Assembly: GCF_902167145.1 (NCBI RefSeq)
Contig: NC_050097.1
Location: 44,004,095 to 44,068,094 of the forward strand
DNA from: Zea mays
Lineage: Eukaryota; Streptophyta; Magnoliopsida; Poales; Poaceae
Direction: 5' to 3'
Length of the DNA: 64,000 nucleotides
Shown: piece after piece, positions 19,969-63,505 of the stretch
Layout: each line of letters starts with the position of its first letter
Numbering within the stretch: position 1 is the first letter of the stretch
Notes under the pieces: generated by a model
Told to the model about the DNA's origin: nothing
The model's database searches: none
What the model saw: only the letters and a program-made list of their open reading frames with translations
Translations under genes and position numbers: made by a program

Positions 19969-22900
19969 GTGGCCATCCTCGCTCTCGGCTTCGCTGCGCC
20001 GGTTGTGCTCCGTCCCGGTTCCATGGCGTCACCCCCGCCACACATGAACTTTGCCTCGCCCGCTGCTTCCGTGGCTCCTGACTACCACGGTCGTGCTTTT
20101 GCCCTGGCCATCGGCGCCACATCCTCCCTGTCTCCGCCCGTTTCCGTCGGAATGGCCGTGTGTGTCCTTCTCAACGATGGCCAGCCTGTCCGGGGCACCT
20201 TCGTGCACTTCGATCCCACCATGAGCCATGTCCTTTGTGACTGAATCGAACTCCACCCCCAGGTCGGCCGTCACGTGTCCGAACCCCTTGTCTTCCCCCG
20301 TGCAGTGATCACCTCCCTGGCCATTGAGCCCTCGTTCCCTCCCTCCCCTCCTAGTAACCACGTCAGAGCTCCTCCTCTGGCTCTCTCTGCGCACCCTACG
20401 GCCTCCCCACTGTCTCCCTCTCCCACTGATTGGGTGGTCGACTCCGGGGCCTCCTTCCACACCACTCCCATAACTAGTTCGTTATTCCACTCCCATCCAC
20501 CACATCCCTCACATCCTTCCTCCATCGTCGTAGGCAATGGTTCCACTCTCCCGGTCACCTCAGTAGGTGCCTTAGTTCTTCCTGGACCATTCTGCCTTAA
20601 CGACGTCCTTGTTGCTCTCGGTCTGACTCATCCCCTCCTCTCGGTTCGTCGCTTCACTAGTGACAACCACTGCTCTATGGAGTTTGACCCCTAGGGTCTC
20701 ACCATACGCCACCTTCCCACACATGCTGTGCTCGCTCGCTGTAACAGCTCCAGCCCCCTCTATTCTCTTCACTTGCCCTCCGCTCCCCCCACCCGAGTAG
20801 CCTCATCTCCTGCACTTACTACTACCACCACATCACATGCTCTTGCTACTACCACCACCTCCTCCACCATTTGGCACCGTCGCCTCGGGCACCCTGGACC
20901 TGACGTCATGTCCCAACTTTCCAGTCACTCAGACATATTCTATACTCGGGCCTCTTCTGAGCGCCTCTGTCATGCTTGTCAGCTCGGCCGCCACTCTCGT
21001 CTTCCTTTTTCCACTTCCACGTCCAGGGCTGTTCAGGCCTTTGATCTTGTCCACTACGATCTCTGGATGTCTCCTATCCTTAGCCTCTCCGGCTACAAAT
21101 ACTACCTAGTCATTCTGGACGACTACTCACATTTTCTTTGGACTTTCCCCCTTCGACTGAAGTCTGCCACGTTTACCACCCTCACTCACTTCTTCGCCTG
21201 GGTATCCACCCAGTTCCAGCGCCCGGTTCGTGCTTTGCAGTGCGACAACGGCCGTGAGTTCGACAACCACGCCTCTCGGTCATTCTTCCTCACCAGTGGC
21301 GTTCAGCTGCATCTCTCGTGCCCCTACACCTCCGCCCAGAACGGCCGCGCAGAGCGCATGATTCGCACCACCACCAACATGATCCGCTGCCTGCTCTTCC
21401 AGGCGTCTCTCCCTGCCAGCTACTGGGCAGAGGCCCTGCACACCGCCACCCACCTCCTCAACCATCTTCCCTCCAAGGCGGTGAGCCACTCTACTCCCTA
21501 CTTCACCCTGTATGGCACAACCCCCACCTATGACCACCTTCGCGTGTTCGGTTGTGCCTGCTACCCTAACACTTCCGCTACTGCCCCTCATAAGCTTTCT
21601 CCTCGCTCCACCCGCTGCCTCTTCCTTGGCTACTCCTCTGACCACAAGGGGTATCGGTGTCTGGACCTCGCCTCCCACCGCATCATCATCTCTCGTCACG
21701 TCGTCTTCGATGAGGATGTGTTTCCCCTTGCTGGCCCCTCACCACCCACCGACCTCGACTCCCTCCTCGAGTCCGATCCGGTCTCCTCCTCCAAGGCGCC
21801 CCGCCTTATGCCATTACCCGCACCCCGTGCGGCCACAACGCCGCGGCTCGCGCCTATTCTCGCGCCACGCGCGGCCCTGTCGATCACGCCTGCGCCACGT
21901 GCGGCCCCGTCGACCACGCCTGCGCCACGCGCGGCCCCATCGACCACGCCTGTGCCTCGCGCGGCCCCGCCGACCCCCCCCCCCCCGTCGATCACGCCTG
22001 CGCCACGCGCGGCCCCGTCGACCATGCCTGTGCCTATTCCAGCGCCACGCGCGGCCCCGTCGATGCCCACGGCTCGCTTCGCGGACCCCGCGCTCGTCTA
22101 CCACCGCCGCCGCCACGTCACTACCTCGGCTCCTGCTGACCCAGGCTCGTCGACGAGCCCAGTGCGGTTCGCCGACCCCAACGTCGTCTATCACCGCCAC
22201 GAGTCGGCCGCGCCCGCGGCCCCCGACGTCCCGGCAGACCGCCTCGAGCCCTCGGTGTACCACCCGGTCGCCATCCACCACGACCCTGGGCACGTCCACC
22301 CGATGGTGACCCGGCACGCCGCCAGTGTTCTTTGACCTGTCGACCGGCTGATCTTGGCAGCTGATACGACTACCACTCCACCGGACGCCTCCCCGGTCCC
22401 CTCCTCCATTCGCACCGCCCTCGCCGACCCACACTGGCGACGCGCTATGGAGGAGTATGCGACCCTCCTGGCCAACCACACCTGGGACCTGATGTCGTGC
22501 CCACCAGGCACCAACGTGGTCACTGGCAAGTGGCTATTCCGCCACAAGCTTACCTCGGACGACTCCCTCGACCGCTACAAGGCTCGTTGGGTCCTTCGGG
22601 GCTTCACCCAACGCCCCGGAGTGGACTACGACGAGACCTTCAGCCCCATCGTCAAGTTCGCCACTGTTCGCACCATCCTCTCCCTCGCCCTCTCCCGGGA
22701 CTGGGCGATCCATCAGCTCGACGTCAAGAATGCCTTCCTCCATGGCACTCTGACGGAGACTATCTACTGCAGCCAGCCCACCGGTTTTGTCGACGAAGCT
22801 CATCCGGATCTAGTCTATCGGCTGAACCGCTCCCTCTACGGCCTCAAGCAGGCGCCGCGGGCCTGGTACAGTCGCTTCGCTTCCTACTTAGCCTCCATCG

Positions 22901-23919
22901 GCTTCGTCGAGGCCAAGTCGGACACGTCCCTCTTCATCTACCGCCGCGGCGACGACACTGTCTTCCTTCTGCTCTACGTCGACGACATTGTGCTCACGGC
23001 ATCCACCGCTGACCTCCTACAGCGCATGATCGTCGCCCTGCAACGAGAGTTCACGATGAAGGACTTGGAGCCCCTCCACCACTTCCTTGACATCACCGCC
23101 GAGCGTCGGCGCCATGGTCTCTTCCTCCATCAGCGTAAGTACGCCATCGACATACTGGAGCGGGCTGGCATGTCCGACTGCAAGCCCTGCTCCACGCCTG
23201 TTGACACTCAGGCGAAGCTCTCAGAGGACGACGGGCCCCCGGTCGCCGATGCAACGTCCTATCGGAGCCTGACCGGCGCGCTCCAGTACCTCACCTTCTC
23301 CAGGCCTGACATCGCCGACGCCGTCCAGCAGGTGTGCCTACATATGCACACCTCGCGGGAGCCTCATCTCACCGCTCTCAAGCGGATCCTGCGCTACCTC
23401 CGCGGCTCCCTTGACTACGGCCTTCTTCTCCGACCATCCCCGACGTTGGAACTCGTGGTCTACACCGACGCCGACTGGGCTGGCTGTCCAGACACGCGTC
23501 GATCCACCTCCGGTTACGTCGTGTTCCTGGGCACCAACCTTGTCTCCTGGGCCGCCAAGCGGCAGCCCGTCGTCTCTCGCTCCAGTGCTGAGGCCGAGTA
23601 CCGCGCCGTGGCCAACGGCGTGGCAGAGGCCTCCTGGCTGCGCCAGCTCCTCCACGAGCTCCACAGTCCCCTCCAGCGCGCCACCCTCGTCTACTGCGAT
23701 AACGTCAGCGCAGTCTACCTCTCCACCAATCCTGTGCAGCATCAGCGCACGAAGCACGTGGAGATCGACCTGCACTTTGTCCGCGAGCGTGTCGCCGCCG
23801 GTGACGTTCGGGTTCTCAGCGTCCCCACTACGCTGCAGTTCGCCGACATCTTCACCAAGGGGTTACCGTCGAGTGTATTTTTAGACTTTCGCTCCAGTCT
23901 CAACATCTGTACAGGATAG
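19969..23919 (+). pseudogene. polyprotein of copia C: Sm-like domain, protease, integrase, RT, RNase H
   Basis: One frame runs the whole length with stops at 20242-20244 (TGA), 20692-20694 (TAG) and 22333-22335 (TGA) and no frameshift. Its start is not fixed because the 5' part is missing. Order: an Sm-like segment (about 20150-20335; VLLNDGQPVRGTFVHFDP, then LVFPRAVITSLAIEP); protease WVVDSGASFHTT (near 20435); zinc region HRRLGHPGPD...CHACQLG (20875-20995); integrase with CDNGREF and AERMIR (21030-21420); a Pro/Ala-rich APRAAP minisatellite (21826-22065); RT with LDVKNAFLHG and YVDDIVLTAS (22440-23100); and RNase H with TDADWAGC, SSAEAEYRA and DNVSAVY (23455-23880). The first stop replaces the Cys of the L-x-D-C-x-E motif kept in E. 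Confidence 0.9.
20150..20335 (+). other. Sm/LSm-like domain segment in copia C
   Basis: The pattern V-L-x-DGQ-x-x-x-G-x-F-x-x-FD, L-x-D-x-x-E/L, then a hydrophobic ...VITSLAIEP strand matches the Sm1 and Sm2 strands of spliceosomal SmB (DGR..G.F.AFD, L.DC.E, VLLRGE.V.SM.VEGPP). The spacing and the Pro-rich tail also fit. Family recognition is from memory and needs a profile search. Confidence 0.6.
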
Positions 23920-23924
23920 AGTTG

Positions 23925-23939
23925 TGACTGTGGGGGGGG
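23925..23939 (+). other. polypurine tract of copia C
   Basis: A G-run (tgactgtgggggggg) directly before the 3' LTR. The same kind of G-run precedes the 3' LTR of E. Confidence 0.75.
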
Positions 23940-24066
23940 TGTTGGAACTGTATTAGGGTTTGGGTACATTTACTCTCTTGCCCCTCTGTAATGGGCCAGG
24001 CCCAACTCATGGCTATTAATATTCAGCCCCACCCTATCCTAGGGTTAGGGTTCCCTCACTTCTACA
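23940..24066 (+). repeat. 3' LTR of copia C (127 bp)
   Basis: Starts TGTTGGAACTGTATTAGGG and ends TTCTACA. It shares the block taatgggcc.ggccca with the LTR of E. The exact right end is set by comparison with E. Confidence 0.75.
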
Positions 24067-56800: not shown

Positions 56801-57836
56801 ATGCTATTGAATCATCACTTCTTCTAAAGACAGTGACACCTACATCAGTAAAGAGACAGTTGTAGCCCATTTGACATAATTGTGAAACGGAAAGCAAATT
56901 GTAATCTAATGAATCAACAAGAAAAACATTGGAAATAGTATGGTCAGGTGATATAGCAATTTTACCCAATCCTTTGACCAAACCTTGATTTCCATCCCCA
57001 AATGTGATAGCTCGTTGGGGATCTTGGTTTTTCTCATATGAGGAGAACATCTTTTTCTCCCCTGTCATGTGGTTTGTGCACCCGCTGTCGAGTATCCAAC
57101 TTGAGCCCCCGGATGCATAAACCTTCTTTTTGCCGTCCTTTGCCATGAGGCATTTGTGGCCGACGTTGGGGAAGAGAAGTCCCTTGGTGACGGCGATGTT
57201 GGCGGCGTCCTCGTCGTCGGAGGAGTCGCTTGAGCTTTCGTCGGAGTCCCACTCCCGACAAACATGGGCATCGCCGCCCTTCTTCTTGTAGTACCTCTTC
57301 TTCTCCTTTCTTCTCCCCTTCTTGTCGTCGCCCCTGTCACTATCACTTGATAATGGACATTTAGCAATAAAGTGACCGGGCTTACCACACTTGTAGCAAA
57401 CCTTCTTGGAGCGGGACTTGTAGTCTTTCCCTCTCCTTTGCTTGAGGATTTGGCGGAAGCTCTTGATGACGAGCGCCATTTCCTCATTGTCGAGCTTGGA
57501 GGCGTCTATAGGTTGTCGACTTGGTGTAGCCTCCTCCTTCTTTTCCTCCGTCGCCTTGAATGCGACGGGTTGAGCTTCGGATGTGGATGGATCATCAAGC
57601 TCGTTGATCTTCCTCGAGCCTTCGATCATGCACTTAAAACTTACAAAATTCTCGATAACTTCCTCGGGGGTCATTTTAGTATATCTAGGATTACCACGAA
57701 TTAATTGAACTTGAGTGGGGTTAAGGAAAATGAGAGATCTTAGAATAACCTTAACCATTTCGTGGTCGTCCCACTTCGTGCTCCCGAGGTTGCGCACTTG
57801 GTTCACCAAAGTCTTGAGCCGGTTGTACATGTGTTG
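53883..57836 (-). CDS. gag-pol polyprotein of copia G (C-terminal Gag to RNase H)
   Basis: One uninterrupted 1315-codon frame. Order: Gag C-terminal half; CCHC knuckle [14 protein letters not shown] (about residues 144-157); acidic tail; protease [15 protein letters not shown] (about 240-255); integrase with [15 protein letters not shown] and [11 protein letters not shown] (about 425-560); RT with [19 protein letters not shown] and YVDDIIFGS (about 830-1060); RNase H with [20 protein letters not shown] and [10 protein letters not shown]; and the end [13 protein letters not shown]. It lacks the coiled-coil linker of B: KKK of the Gag tail joins directly to YASGG before protease, in frame. A one-base deletion near 57838 (gtgctcc where A and B have gtggctcc) separates it from the Gag N-terminus. 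Confidence 0.92.
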
Positions 57837-58011
57837 TGCTCCTCCCCTTTGCGAAGTCGGAACCGACCGAGCTCCCCCTCGATCGTTTCCCGCTTGGTGA
57901 TTTTGGTGAGCTCATCTCCTTCGTGCGCGGTTTTGAGCACATCCCAAACTTCCTTGGCGTTCTTCAACCCTTGAACTTTGTTATACTCCTCTCTACTTAA
58001 AGAGGCGAGGA

Positions 58012-58016
58012 GTATT
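58012..58016. repeat. target-site duplication of element E (left)
   Basis: GTATT, repeated at 62892-62896. The uninterrupted family sequence in A reads gaggagtattgttgtgg, confirming the site. Confidence 0.95.
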
Positions 58017-58155
58017 TGTTGGAAACTGAACCCATGCCCTAACCAGGGATGGGGAGTAGTATTAATAGAGTAGTAACTGGGCCAGGCCCATTACAGTGAG
58101 GGGTGAGACGGTAATTACAACCCAAACCCTAGACTCCTAGACGGGTAGTCTAACA
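58017..58155 (-). repeat. 3' LTR of element E (139 bp)
   Basis: Minus strand TGTTAGACTACCCGTC to TTTCCAACA; identical to 62753-62891. Confidence 0.95.
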
Positions 58156-58165
58156 CCCCCCCGCA
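58156..58165 (-). other. polypurine tract of element E
   Basis: Minus strand TGCGGGGGGG, directly before the 3' LTR. Confidence 0.8.
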
Positions 58166-58174
58166 GTCACAACT

Positions 58175-61100
58175 CTATCCTGTACAGATGTTGAGACTGG
58201 ATCGAAAGTCTAGAAATACACTCGACGGAAGGCCCTTGGTGAAGATGTCGGCGAACTGCAGCGTGGTGGGGACGCTGAGAACACGAACGTCACCGGCAGC
58301 GACACGCTCGCGGACGAAGTGAAGGTCGATCTCGATGTGCTTCGTGCGCTGATGCTGCACGGGGTTGGTGGAGAGGTAGACCGCACTGACGTTGTCGCAG
58401 TAGACGAGTGTGGCGCGCTGAAGAGGACTGTGGAGCTCGTGGAGGAGCTGGCGCAGCCAGGAGACCTCGGCCACACCGTTTGCCACGGCACGGTACTCGG
58501 CCTCAGCGCTGGAGCGAGAGACGACGGGCTGCCGCTTGGCGGCCCAAGAGACGAGGTTGGTGCCCAGGAACACGGCGTAGCCGGAGGTGGACCGGCGCGT
58601 GTCAGGACAGCCAGCCCAGTCAGCGTCGGTGTAGACCACGAGCTCCGACGTCGGGGATGGGCGGAGTAGGAGGCCGTAGTCGAGGGAGCCGCGGAGGTAG
58701 CGTAGGATCCGCTTGAGCGCAGTGAGATGGGGCTCCCGCGGAGTGTGCATATGCAGGCACACCTGCTGGACAGCGTAAGCGATGTCGGGCCTGGAGAACG
58801 TGAGGTACTGGAGCGCGCCGGTGAGGCTCCGGTATGACGTCGCGTCGGCGACCGGAGGCCCGTCGTCCTCAGAGAGCTTCGCCTGAGTGTCGACAGGCGT
58901 GGAGCAAGGCTTGCAGTCAGACATGCCAGCCCGCTCCAGGATGTCGATGGCGTACTGGCGCTGGTGGAGGAAGAGACCCTGAGGCCGACGTTCGGCGGTG
59001 ATGCCGAGGAAGTGGTGGAGGGGCCCCAGGTCCTTCATCGCGAACTCCCGCTGGAGGGCGACGATCGTGCGGTGTAGAAGGTCGGCGGTGGATGCCGTGA
59101 GCACAATGTCGTCGACGTAGAGCAGGAGGTAGACGGTGTCGTCGCCGCGCCGGTAGATGAACAGGGACGTGTCCGACTTGGCCTCGACGAAGCCGATGGA
59201 GGCTAGGTAGGAGGCAAAGCGACTGTACCAAGCCCGTGGCGCCTGCTTGAGGCCGTACAGGGACCTGTTCAGCCGGCAAACCAAATCCGGACGGTCAGCG
59301 TCGACGAAGCCGGTGGGCTGGCTGTAGTAGATAGTCTCTGTCAGAGTGCCATGGAGGAAGGCATTCTTGACATCGAGCTGATGGATCGCCCAGTCGCGGG
59401 AGAGGGCGAGGGAGAGGACGGCGCGAACAGTGGCGAACTTGACGACAGGGCTGAAGGTCTCGTCGTAGTCCACTCCGGGGCGCTGGGTGAAGCCCCGAAG
59501 GACCCAACGGGCCTTGTAGCGGTCGAGGGAGCCGTCCGAGGTCAGCTTGTGGCGAAATAGCCACTTGCCGGTGACCACGTTGGTGCCTGGTGGACGCGGC
59601 ACCAGGTCCCAGGTGTGGTTGGCCAAGAGGGTCGCGTACTCCTCCTCCATAGCACGACGCCAATGTGGGTCGGCGAGGGCAGTGCGAACGGAGGAGGGTA
59701 CCGGGGAAGCGTCGGGTGGAGTGCTAGTCGTAGTAGCAGCCAGTATTAGCCGGTCGACGGGGCGGAGAACGCCAGCAGCGCGCCGAGTCACCATCGGATG
59801 GACGTGCCCGGGGTCGCGGTGGATAGCGACCGGGTGGTATACGGACGACTCGGAGTGAATCGCCGGGACGTCGGGAGCGGCTGCTGGGGCCGGCTCACGG
59901 CGGTGATAGACGACGGCGGAGTCGGCGAATCGGGCCGCGCTCGTTGACGGGCCTGAGTCGGGGGGCGCCGATGTAGTGGCGTGGCCGCGGCGATGGTAGA
60001 CAAGGGCGGGGTTGGCGAATCGAGCCGGAGTCGACGGGGCCGCGCGTGGCGCAGGCGGGGTCGGCGGGGCCGCGCGTGGCGCGGGCAGGATCGACGGGGC
60101 CGCGCGTGGCGCAGGCGGGGTCGGCGGGACCGCGCGTGGCGCAGGCGGGGTCGGCGGGACCGCGCGTGGCGCAGGCGGGGTCGACGGGGCCGCGCGTGGC
60201 GCGGAAGAGGTCGTGGGGGCCGCACGAGGAGCAGGTAACGGCGCAAGACGGGGAGCCGGAGGTGGGGGAGGGATCGGATCGGACTCGAGGAGGGAGTCAA
60301 GATCGGTGGGTGGGGTGGAGCTAGCAAGGGGAAACACATCTTCGTCAAAGATGACATGACGAGAGATGATGATGCGGTGGGAGGTGAGGTCCAGACACCG
60401 GTACCCCTTATGGTCAGGGGAGTAGCCAAGGAATAGACAGCGGGTGGAGCGAGGAGAAAGCTTATGAGGAGCGGTAGCGGAAGTGTTAGGGTAGCAGGCA
60501 CAGCCGAACACGCGAAGGTGGTCATAGGAAGGGGTTGTGCCGTATAGGGCGAAGTGAGGGGTAGGGGTGGCGTACCGCCTTCGAGGGAAGACGGTTCAGG
60601 AGGTGGGTGGCAGTGTGCAGGGCCTCTGCCCAGTAGGTGGCAGGGAGAGACGCCTGAAAGAGAAGGCAGCGGATCATGTTGGTGGTGGTGCGAATCATGC
60701 GCTCGGCCCGGCCGTTCTGAGCAGAGGTGTAGGGACACGAGAGACGCAACTGGACGCCGTGAGTGAGGAAGAAAGAGCGGGAGGCGTTGTTGTCGAACTC
60801 GCGGCCATTGTCGCACTGCAGGGCACGGACCGGGCGCCAGAACTGGGTGGATACCCAGGCGAAAAAGTGAGTGAGGGTGGTAAACGTGTCAGACTTCAGC
60901 CGAAGGGGGAAAGTCCAAAGGAAATGGGAGTAGTCATCGAGAATGACCAGGTAGTATTTGTAGCCGGAGAGGCTAAGGACAGGAGATGTCCAGAGATCAC
61001 AGTGGACAAGATCAAAGGCCTGGACAGCCCTGGATGTGGAAGTAGAAAAAGGAAGACGGGAGTGGCGGCCGAGCTGACAAGCATGACAGAGGCGCTCAGA

Positions 61101-61937
61101 AGAGCCCCGAGTATATGATATGTCGGAGTGGCCGGAAAGCTGGGACATGACGTCAGGTCCAGGGTGCCCGAGGCGACGGTGCCAAATGGCAGAGGAGGTG
61201 GTGGTAGTAGCAAGAGCATGTGAAGTGGTGGTAGTAGTAATGACAGGAGATGAGGCTACTCTGGTGTGGGGATTGGAGGGCAGGTGAAGAGAATAGAGGG
61301 GGCCGGAGCTGTCACAGCGAGCGAGCACAGCATGTGTGGGAAGGTGGCGTATGGTGAGGCCTCAGGGGTCGAACTCCATAGAGCACTGGTTGTCACTAGT
61401 GAAGCGACGAACCGAGAGGAGGGGATGAGTTAGCCCGGGAGCAACAAGGACGTCGTTAAGGCAGAATGGTCCTGGAAGAGCCGATGTACCTACTGAGGTG
61501 ACCGGGAGGGTGGAACCGTTGCCGACGACGATGGAGGTAGGATGTGAGGGGTGGGGTGGATGGGAGTGGAGTAACGAAGTAGTGGTGGGGGTAGTGTGGA
61601 AGGAGGCCCCAGAGTCAACCACCCAATCGGTGGTGGTCCGGGGAGGTGGAAGTGGCGAAGGTACGTTGTGAGCGGAGAGGGCCAAAGAAGGTGCCCCGAC
61701 AGAGGCACTAGGAAGGGAGGGAGATGACACGGGCTCAACCGCTAGGGAGGCGATCGCAGCACGTGGGAAGACAAGCGGTCCAGGCACGTGACGGCCCGCC
61801 TGAGGGTGGACCTCGACGCAGTCCCGAAGAATAGGGTTCCAGACGGGATCAAAGGACACGAACATGCCCCGGATGAGCTGGCCGTCGTGGAGGAGGACAC
61901 GCACCGTCACGAGAGCGGCGGGCGAGGTAAAGCTCAT
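58175..61937 (-). pseudogene. polyprotein of element E: Sm-like domain, protease, integrase, RT, RNase H
   Basis: The first ATG in frame (61935-61937) gives MSFTSPAALVTVRVLLHDGQ and directly enters the Sm-like segment. Order: Sm-like (about 61735-61920); DWVVDSGASFHTT protease (near 61610); TGA 61362-61364; zinc region HRRLGHPGPD; integrase with CDNGREFDN and AERMIR; a one-base insertion in a C-run near 60575 shifting the frame; the APRAAP minisatellite (60030-60245); RT with LDVKNAFLHG and YVDDIVLTAS (near 59110); and RNase H TDADWAGC, SSAEAEYRA to the end at 58175. From 60511 to 58175 the frame is intact (778 codons). No copia gag fold or CCHC knuckle is present. Confidence 0.9.
61735..61920 (-). 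other. Sm/LSm-like domain segment in element E
   Basis: Intact in this copy. Conserved points in order: DGQ..RG.F.SFDP, N, L-x-DC-x-E, G-P-L-V, I-A-S-L-A-V-E-P. They parallel SmB Sm1 (DGR..G.F.AFD..MN..L.DC.E) and Sm2 (GLVLLRGE.V.SMTVEGPP). The Sm2 RG pair is RA here. It is fused in frame to protease. Confidence 0.62.
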
Positions 61938-62740
61938 GGCGACCGGTGCAGGCCTGCGCAAGGAGGCGCGGACAGGACAGCCGGGCGCGAAACAGCAGAG
62001 GCGGCTGAGTGCTCGGCGTCGGGCGTCCACAGCACGGGACAGCAGGGGCGCTGCGTGACGCGGAACAGCAGGGGCGCGGGACCACCAGGCGGGTGCTCCT
62101 GGACGGGTGAAGCAGGGAGGAGAAGGCTGCCGAGCAGTGGGGAAGAAGACCGGCGGCTGGTAGGGGAAGGGGAGCACGTGTGGGACGCCACTCCCCTGGC
62201 CGGATCTCGCCCTGCTCGCCCCTGTTTGGATGCCCAGGCCTCTGCGCGGGCGGCGTCGGGGCGCCGGATCGGCAGGCGGTGCGGCGGCCGGGGCCGGTCG
62301 CGGACGCCTGGGCAGGAGCGGTGGCGCGCCTGGGTGCGGACCGCTGCTCGGTCGCGGGCCGCTGGGCGTCGGGCCGTATGAGCAGGGGCGGGTGGACGGG
62401 GGATCTGGCGGGTGCCGGCCTGGTGTAGACGGGCGCGCCGTCGGGGTCGCGGGCTGGGGAGGGGCGACGGGATGCGTGGGGAAGACCGGAGGTGGGACGT
62501 CGGGCGCCGTACCCAGGGGGAAGGCCGGCGGCGGCGGACGGGCAGGGGCAGGGGACCGGCGGTGGAGCCGGCGGCTGGGAGGGAGAGGAGGGAGGTCGGC
62601 GGTGGGCGCGGACGCTGGCTGGGTGCCGGCGGCCGACGCAGGGGAGAGGAGGGGGAGGGACCGGCGGCAGGGGCCGGCGGCGCAGGGGAGAGGATGCCCC
62701 TGGCGGCTGTAGGACAGGAAACAGAAAACCTAAACCTAGA
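61938..62740 (-). other. GC-rich leader of element E
   Basis: Lies between the PBS and the first ATG. The polyprotein frame stays open back to a stop near 62730-62732 but has no ATG upstream of 61937. Composition is extremely G+C rich with GGCGG repeats. No gag-like protein is recognisable in this stretch, where copia gag would be expected. Confidence 0.6.
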
Positions 62741-62752
62741 GCTCTGATACCA
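62741..62752 (-). other. primer binding site of element E
   Basis: Minus TGGTATCAGAGC, perfect tRNA-Met type site touching the LTR. Confidence 0.94.
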
Positions 62753-62891
62753 TGTTGGAAACTGAACCCATGCCCTAACCAGGGATGGGGAGTAGTATTA
62801 ATAGAGTAGTAACTGGGCCAGGCCCATTACAGTGAGGGGTGAGACGGTAATTACAACCCAAACCCTAGACTCCTAGACGGGTAGTCTAACA
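62753..62891 (-). repeat. 5' LTR of element E (139 bp)
   Basis: Identical to 58017-58155. No obvious TATA box except a short tattaata tract; unusually short for a copia LTR. Confidence 0.95.
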
Positions 62892-62896
62892 GTATT

Positions 62897-63471
62897 GTTG
62901 TCGCTTGAGAGTTGAAGTGCTCGATTTGGGCCACTTCATCCTCATCATAGTCTTTATCCCCTACGGATGGTACCTGTGCACCAAACTCAACAACATCCCA
63001 TATACTTTTGTGGAGTGAGGTTAGATGAAATCGCATTAAATCACTCCACCTAGCATAATCTTCACCATCAAAAGTTGGTGGTTTGCCTAATGGGACGGAA
63101 AGTAAAGGTGCATTTTTAGAAATGCGAGGGTAATGTAGGGGGATCTTACTAAACTTCTTACGCTCTTGGCGTTTAGAAGTTACGGAGGGCGCATCGGAGT
63201 CGGAGGTCGATGTTGATGAAGTGTCGGTCTCGTAGTAGACCACTTTCCTCATCCTTTTGTGCTTGTCCCCTCTCCGATGTGGCTTGTGGGAGGAAGATCT
63301 CTCCTTCTTCTCTTTGTGGTGCGAAGAAGATTTCTTCTCCTTCCCTTTGTTGGAGGAGATCTTCTTCTTCTCCTTCCTCTTGGTGCGGGACTCTTCCGAT
63401 GAAGTGCTCCCGTGGCTTGTAGTGGGCTTTTCGCCGGTCTCCATCTCCTTCTTGGCGTGATCTCCCGACAT
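62897..63471 (-). pseudogene. N-terminal Gag of copia G, split by element E
   Basis: The ATG is at 63469-63471 (MSGDHAKKEMETGEKP). A Lys/Ser-rich segment is longer than in A and B (extra KKISSNKGKEKKSSSHHKEK-type stretch). The PPTFDGEDYARWSDL core follows, reading to 62897, where element E enters. The remaining ~180 bases (57837-58011) lie on the far side of E. Removing E and one copy of GTATT would leave a sequence collinear with A. Confidence 0.87.
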
Positions 63472-63505
63472 CACTTCGAGCGGTTAGGCTCTAATGAAGC
63501 ACCGG

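Follow-up and report, generated by a model that had tools for sequence, protein, structure and literature searches.

A gag-less copia retrotransposon family in maize whose polyprotein appears to begin with a captured SmB-type domain

A 64,000-nucleotide stretch of the Zea mays genome (contig NC_050097.1, positions 44,004,095 to 44,068,094 of the forward strand; here called the window, whose own numbering is used below) contains a complete long terminal repeat (LTR) retrotransposon, element E, that lacks gag. The first segment of its polyprotein resembles the Sm domain of spliceosomal proteins. We propose that this segment originated from host SmB, stands in the position of gag, is under purifying selection, and acts as an adaptor in an element that receives Gag in trans; taken as a whole, this reading has a probability of roughly 0.6. 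The initial annotation of the window had suggested the capture of an SmB-type domain in place of gag. That suggestion was supported by the affinity of the family profile for SmB, by old copies carrying both Sm1 and Sm2, by the absence of gag, and by the recurrence of the arrangement.

An Sm-like segment at the start of the polyprotein

The first frame of E (61937-61362, minus strand) is open for 191 codons, starts with MSFTSPAALVTVRVLLHDGQLIRGMFVSFDPVWNPILRDCVEVHPQ, and reaches the DSGAS motif of the protease, which places the Sm-like segment in frame with the protease, as initially annotated. The features of this frame are as follows.

61731..61937, minus: Sm-like segment of E, polyprotein residues 1-69, from the first ATG past the LTR (Pfam LSM and PDB matches)
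61803..61904, minus: Sm1 half of the segment (residues 12-45), with a significant match to SmB in hhalign (probability, 96.6; P 4.8e-10)
61731..61802, minus: Sm2 half, residues 46-69, degenerate (no support alone; SmB-like in older copies)
61365..61625, minus: protease (Pol_BBD, DSGAS), residues 105-191 (Pfam, 35.6 bits)
61362..61364, minus: in-frame TGA closing the first open frame

The translation of 61937-61362 scored above the Pfam cutoff for LSM (PF01423; 25.5 versus 23.4 bits; E value, 1.1e-5) and matched Pol_BBD at 35.6 bits. The 69-residue segment of E alone scored 28.3 bits against LSM, which was found in 14 of 16 family segments. When this segment was compared with PDB sequences, all 26 matches at E values of ≤10 were Sm/LSm proteins, with yeast LSm1 at the top (E value, 0.003). 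A profile built from the 16 segments gave a best E value of 4.1e-6, and all 58 of its PDB matches at E values of ≤1 were again Sm/LSm proteins; the top ten were named SmB, the 11th was an Sm-domain protein, and the 12th was yeast SmB. None of 100 column-shuffled profiles attained the real score against SmB (28.9 bits; shuffle maximum, 3.4). The Sm1 motif of the Sm/LSm family (strands 1 to 3) was present in E, and profile-profile comparison with plant SmB over Sm1 gave an hhalign probability of 96.6 (P 4.8e-10). Hallmark Sm positions were retained across the family: D39 in 51/52, L37 in 48/52, F29 in 44/46, D30 in 42/46, and G24 in 40/43. Of the Sm1/Sm2 pattern that the initial annotation had read in E, the Sm1 part was significant on its own; the Sm2 part was not, its tie to SmB running through older copies only.

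Relationship to host SmB

We searched the genome to which the window belongs (2.18 Gb; 655 contigs, ten of them large). With plant SmB as the query, two host genes, each uninterrupted over 261 codons, and 14 weaker places were detected. All 14 weaker places were Sm segments of old, degraded copies, and protease-like sequence lay downstream in 13 of them. Sm2 was readable in 13 of the 14; the remaining copy (L080) loses its frame past Sm1. Three old copies retain FRG (e.g., FRGAEIVSMTIE versus host LLRGEEVVSMTVE). In each of the six old copies tested, none of 2,000 shuffles matched host SmB as well as the real Sm2 did. At the DNA level, 7 of the 14 matched the SmB gene at E values of <1e-3, and E itself matched at 0.023.

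Because older copies in the same genome keep an SmB-like Sm2, the Sm segment is, by its sequence, a derivative of SmB, and E carries a diverged version. LSm1, the top PDB match for E alone, was considered as the donor and rejected: the family profile favors SmB, and the genomic copies match the SmB genes, SmB having been the one Sm/LSm host gene used as a genome query.

Absence of gag in E and a gag-bearing sister family

Beyond its first frame, E consists of the following parts.

58017..62891, minus: element E, complete LTR retrotransposon with Ty1/copia domain order, without gag (LTR pair, target-site duplication, primer site, Pfam pol domains)
62753..62891, minus: 5' LTR, 139 bp, TG...CA (100% identical to 58017-58155)
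58017..58155, minus: 3' LTR, 139 bp
62892..62896, minus: target-site duplication AATAC, 5' side (read directly)
58012..58016, minus: target-site duplication AATAC, 3' side (read directly)
62741..62752, minus: primer-binding site, TGGTATCAGAGC (read directly)
61938..62752, minus: GC-rich leader, 815 nt, no ATG (0 ATGs versus 2.9 expected; GC, 0.75)
60522..61328, minus: GAG-pre-integrase and integrase core (Pfam)
58175..60511, minus: integrase SH3-like end, reverse transcriptase, and downstream part (Pfam RVT_2, 228.6 bits)

LTRs, target-site duplication, and primer site are all present, as in Ty1/copia elements, and we take TGGTATCAGAGC to be of the initiator tRNA-Met type. Pol_BBD, rve, and RVT_2 occur in this order, i.e., protease and integrase precede reverse transcriptase; RNase H presumably follows reverse transcriptase, an assignment made by motif. 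The polyprotein thus reads Sm, a short proline/serine-rich linker, protease, integrase, reverse transcriptase, and RNase H. The pol region of E is broken twice, by the TGA at 61364-61362 and by a frame change between the open frames 61328-60522 and 60511-58175.

E is a gag-less copia element. Neither Pfam nor a search with the gag of a sister family revealed a gag domain or CCHC knuckle in it, while other copia frames of the window gave both (Retrotran_gag_2 and CCHC); the initial annotation had likewise seen neither in E. Pfam detected no gag in 10 relatives for which upstream sequence was present. In E and 20 whole copies, the sister gag found nothing below an E value of 1.7 outside the LTR/leader; its matches were to its own LTR/leader-derived first residues and to one chance place (E value of 1.7 or worse). 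The same search recovered 8 of 8 gag-bearing loci used as a positive control, one of which was the query's own copy.

These results bear on the reading in which the segment resembles Sm by chance or is a normal copia gag that has diverged. In its favor, the segment of E by itself strongly matches only half of an Sm domain. Against it stand the uniform Sm/LSm identity of the 58 PDB matches, the column shuffles, the intermediate old copies, which fit host SmB over both motifs, and the failure of the sister gag to find a counterpart in E or the 20 copies outside the LTR/leader. We give this reading almost no credence.

The gag-bearing sister family had 136 genomic matches with frames of up to about 1,900 codons, a statement that leaves aside three listed frames exceeding this length. 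Two sister matches lay in unusually long open frames, G000:C1:56133244-56134110 (3,422 codons) and G000:C5:146891697-146892563 (2,670 codons). In the one sister copy compared, the LTR was 87.05% identical to that of E over 139 columns (E value, 1.6e-45), and the primer site read TGGTATCAG...; the genome thus holds a gag-bearing relative with a related LTR and primer site, as seen in this single copy. No 3' LTR of this copy was found in the stretch fetched. Because a gag-bearing sister with an 87%-identical LTR shares the genome, Gag may be supplied in trans.

Family size, recent activity, and copy C

The initial annotation had regarded the Sm arrangement as a family trait rather than a one-off event, and it was found to recur in at least 150 scored genomic copies, 74 to 100% identical and drawn from 34,411 first-look candidates. 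A second genome query likewise gave at least 150 copies. Stop-to-stop frames of at least 1,500 codons were present in at least 26 of the best 150. A protein search gave 408 relatives at E values of ≤0.01; the Sm segment was present in 59 of 121 proteins (the best 120 of these relatives plus P0001). No intact Sm-bearing polyprotein was among the 120 reverse transcriptase homologs listed; the whole-genome copies provided it. Scans of IMG/VR detected no relative.

The family of E moved recently. In all 20 whole copies examined, LTR pairs were 95.7 to 100% identical (100% in 12). Equal 5-base flanks were read directly in eight copies, those of the others being displaced by alignment ends. A single frame ran through reverse transcriptase to the end of RNase H in 19 of the 20, and 19 of the 20 had been picked for long frames. 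The ATG that opens the frame lies a few residues upstream of the Sm domain. The leaders between LTR and this ATG (644 to 1,036 nt; 21 including E, from related copies and hence not 21 independent trials) contained 4 ATGs versus 68.1 expected from shuffles, and 18 of them had none. Because the leaders are nearly free of ATG, their sequences point to scanning ribosomes beginning translation at the Sm domain.

A related copy in the window, copy C, had been annotated initially as sharing the arrangement of E.

20023..23943, plus: related copy C, Sm-protease-integrase-reverse transcriptase order as in E (DNA about 87% identical to E over 20158-23943)
about 20152..20331, plus: Sm segment of copy C, broken by an in-frame TGA

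The shared arrangement was borne out, with a start ATG at 20023; the Sm segment of C is not intact, because of the in-frame TGA.

In both copies, the codon after MEFDP is a stop, TGA in E (61362-61364) and TAG in C (20692-20694). At the 67 genomic loci, this codon was TGG in 60 of 62 readable cases and TAG in 2 (5 were unread). Among the 121 proteins, 8 end at this codon, versus 19 with tryptophan there. A programmed stop between protease and integrase was rejected given the predominance of TGG. The stops in E and C are probably independent lesions; because the site is CCTGG, they may have arisen by deamination of methylated cytosine.

One capture or two

In a protease tree of listed proteins only, Sm-bearing (30 rows) and gag-bearing (24 rows) sequences were separated by a single change, a split with support of 86/62 that occurred in 88% of 200 bootstrap trees. 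With the old copies added, two changes were needed: a single Sm clade, held at first, failed, and it was rejected by the approximately unbiased (AU) test (p 0.0158; reduced set of 28 rows and 80 columns). The protease tree is short, and the rows of the old copies are damaged. On it, the old Sm-bearing copies L071-L084 cluster away from the family of E.

Young and old Sm segments have in common a linker, HPQ-GRH-GP-VF, that is not in host SmB in the alignment. Because of this shared linker, we infer that SmB was captured once in an ancestor and that the module later passed from one protease lineage to another; Sm2 would also have diverged after the capture. The rejection of one Sm clade means that a single origin needs recombination, and the separate grouping of the old copies on the tree suggests an exchange of the Sm module between pol lineages.

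Constraint on the Sm codons

The ratio of nonsynonymous to synonymous differences (pN/pS) was obtained from pairwise counts over the 67 loci plus E and C (four copies occur twice, leaving 65 distinct). In three windows of rising divergence, the Sm ratio was 0.60 (0.44-0.78; 26 pairs), 0.41 (0.32-0.54; 29 pairs), and 0.40 (0.35-0.47; 12 pairs), compared with 0.84, 0.62, and 0.52 for the linker and 0.48, 0.38, and 0.24 for the protease, respectively. The Sm codons are therefore constrained, less than those of the protease and somewhat more than those of the linker, with intervals overlapping in places. With all three Sm intervals below 1, purifying selection, raised as a question in the initial annotation, received support, and the Sm domain appears from these codon patterns to be kept by selection.

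Several observations weigh against our overall reading. The copies were selected by similarity to the protein of E, which lowers pN in every region. In the youngest divergence window, where the Sm ratio is 0.60, its Sm2 half reached 0.90 (0.45-2.03). Sm1 amino acids are as variable as those of the linker: mean protein identity over 167 pairs was 65% for Sm1 and 67% for the linker (77% for the Sm2 half and 79% for the protease). For the E-C pair alone, the Sm ratio was 0.49 (0.23-1.00), with an upper bound that reaches 1.00, and was not distinguishable from that of the proline-rich spacer (p 0.58). The RG of Sm2 is missing from E, 1,310 of 2,000 shuffles of its Sm2 half alone scored as well, and the half-profile comparison was not significant. 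A single Sm clade was rejected on the protease tree, as described above. Structure prediction, finally, did not confirm an Sm fold. AlphaFold2 modeled the segment of E with low confidence (predicted local distance difference test [pLDDT] score, 50.7) and that of a relative, P0012, with a pLDDT of about 70-75 at residues 11-60 and weak small-barrel matches. Foldseek (best E value, 0.12) and VIA-align returned small barrels with weak scores (an LSm/Edc3 title, Tudor, and Hfq); no confident Sm fold match was among the results of these searches, and Tudor domains ranked near the top beside LSm/Hfq.

Part of this evidence, namely, the rapid protein evolution of Sm1, the near-neutral bound of the E-C pair, the unconfirmed fold, and the degenerate Sm2, would be expected if the segment were a host fragment that, once gag had been lost, merely gave Pol a start codon and an N-terminal extension that is tolerated, its fold idle and Gag coming from elsewhere. 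Such a start-codon spacer would not account for Sm intervals below 1 and below the linker point estimate in all three windows (0.40-0.41 in two), nor for the retention of hallmark positions. We consider it unlikely.

A possible role for the Sm domain

By homology, the Sm domain may bind RNA, the role suggested in the initial annotation, or dock on Sm/LSm rings. Under the adaptor reading that we prefer, the element would no longer encode its own capsid, and E-type RNA, whose LTR is still like that of the gag-bearing sister, would be packaged by the Gag of that sister family. The Sm domain fronting Pol would serve as an adaptor for RNA or ribonucleoprotein (RNP) that keeps Pol on its RNA; alternatively, it would dock the Pol-RNA complex onto host Sm/LSm rings, e.g., in P-bodies. 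In yeast, Ty3 retrosomes are reported to require host Lsm1 (PMC4589538). For maize, 25 LTR families are reported in which gag and pol reside in different copies, with Pol-only and Gag-only copies of one family (PMC8547701).

A second possibility is that the segment replaces Gag outright. Sm would then oligomerize on the element RNA, as Sm/LSm/Hfq proteins do, and the RNP so formed, once the protease had cut it away from Pol, would take the place of the capsid, with no Gag in trans. The location of Sm at the polyprotein start in E and the whole copies, the failure to find gag in cis, and the constraint on the Sm codons are consistent with this scheme. It is made improbable by the presence in the genome of a sister family that has gag and a similar LTR, and we know of no LTR element that replicates without a particle. 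In E, moreover, the degenerate half is Sm2, which in Sm rings bears the strands contacting ring neighbors (PMC2650416). A version of this scheme in which Sm, whether released or still attached to Pol, forms an Sm-type ring RNP on the element RNA seems slightly less probable again; the family would then be an LTR retrotransposon with a splicing-factor fold in place of a capsid.

Other features of E and its insertion site

Between integrase and reverse transcriptase of E, positions 59993-60262 consist of 30-bp tandem units (at least 7 overlapping 90-bp windows) encoding an Ala/Pro/Arg-rich repeat. The E-C ratio of this spacer was about neutral (0.94).

The insertion of E splits the gag region of a second copia element (57830-63474), which we take to be SIRE-like and whose interrupted reading resumes on either side. 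The window also holds uninterrupted relatives of this split element, at about 10.8-12.4 and 17.0-18.7 kb.

Comparison with known systems and implications

Like plant Ty1/copia elements, E has TG...CA LTRs, a 5-bp target duplication, a primer site of presumed tRNA-Met type, and the order protease-integrase-reverse transcriptase. Unlike them, its family has no gag, a frame that opens with Sm, and very short LTRs (about 100-153 bp aligned). The family resembles SmB (PF01423) in Sm1 and, in older copies, in Sm2, and the genome has two host SmB genes. It differs from SmB in being fused to Pol, in a shortened Sm1-Sm2 loop, in a degenerate Sm2 in young copies, and in the absence of the long SmB tail.

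A Pol-only element beside a gag-bearing relative with a similar LTR recalls the split gag/pol families of maize (Cinful/Zeon; PMC8547701); the available text of that source does not describe a captured host domain for them. Bdelloid rotifers have LTR retrotransposons with extra open reading frames (ORFs) that are likewise described as having taken up host or foreign domains (PMC5408684); in those, gag and pol are kept and the addition forms a third ORF, whereas here the captured domain occupies the position of gag. In the literature searched by title and abstract opening, no LTR element was reported to carry an Sm domain, although this does not prove that such a report is lacking.

As far as the sequences go, the capture of a spliceosomal domain that now heads a copia family without gag is well supported. 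Gag is the defining structural protein of LTR elements. If the reading proposed here is true, a successful family has dropped Gag for a spliceosomal Sm fold, and host RNP machinery can enter a retroelement. The family of E would then be a testable system for how much of the work of Gag (RNA selection and localization) another RNA-binding fold does. Because 25 of the best 120 of the 408 relatives carry the source label "snRNP-like protein," Sm/LSm matches in the annotation of grass genes and metagenomes can be retrotransposon proteins.
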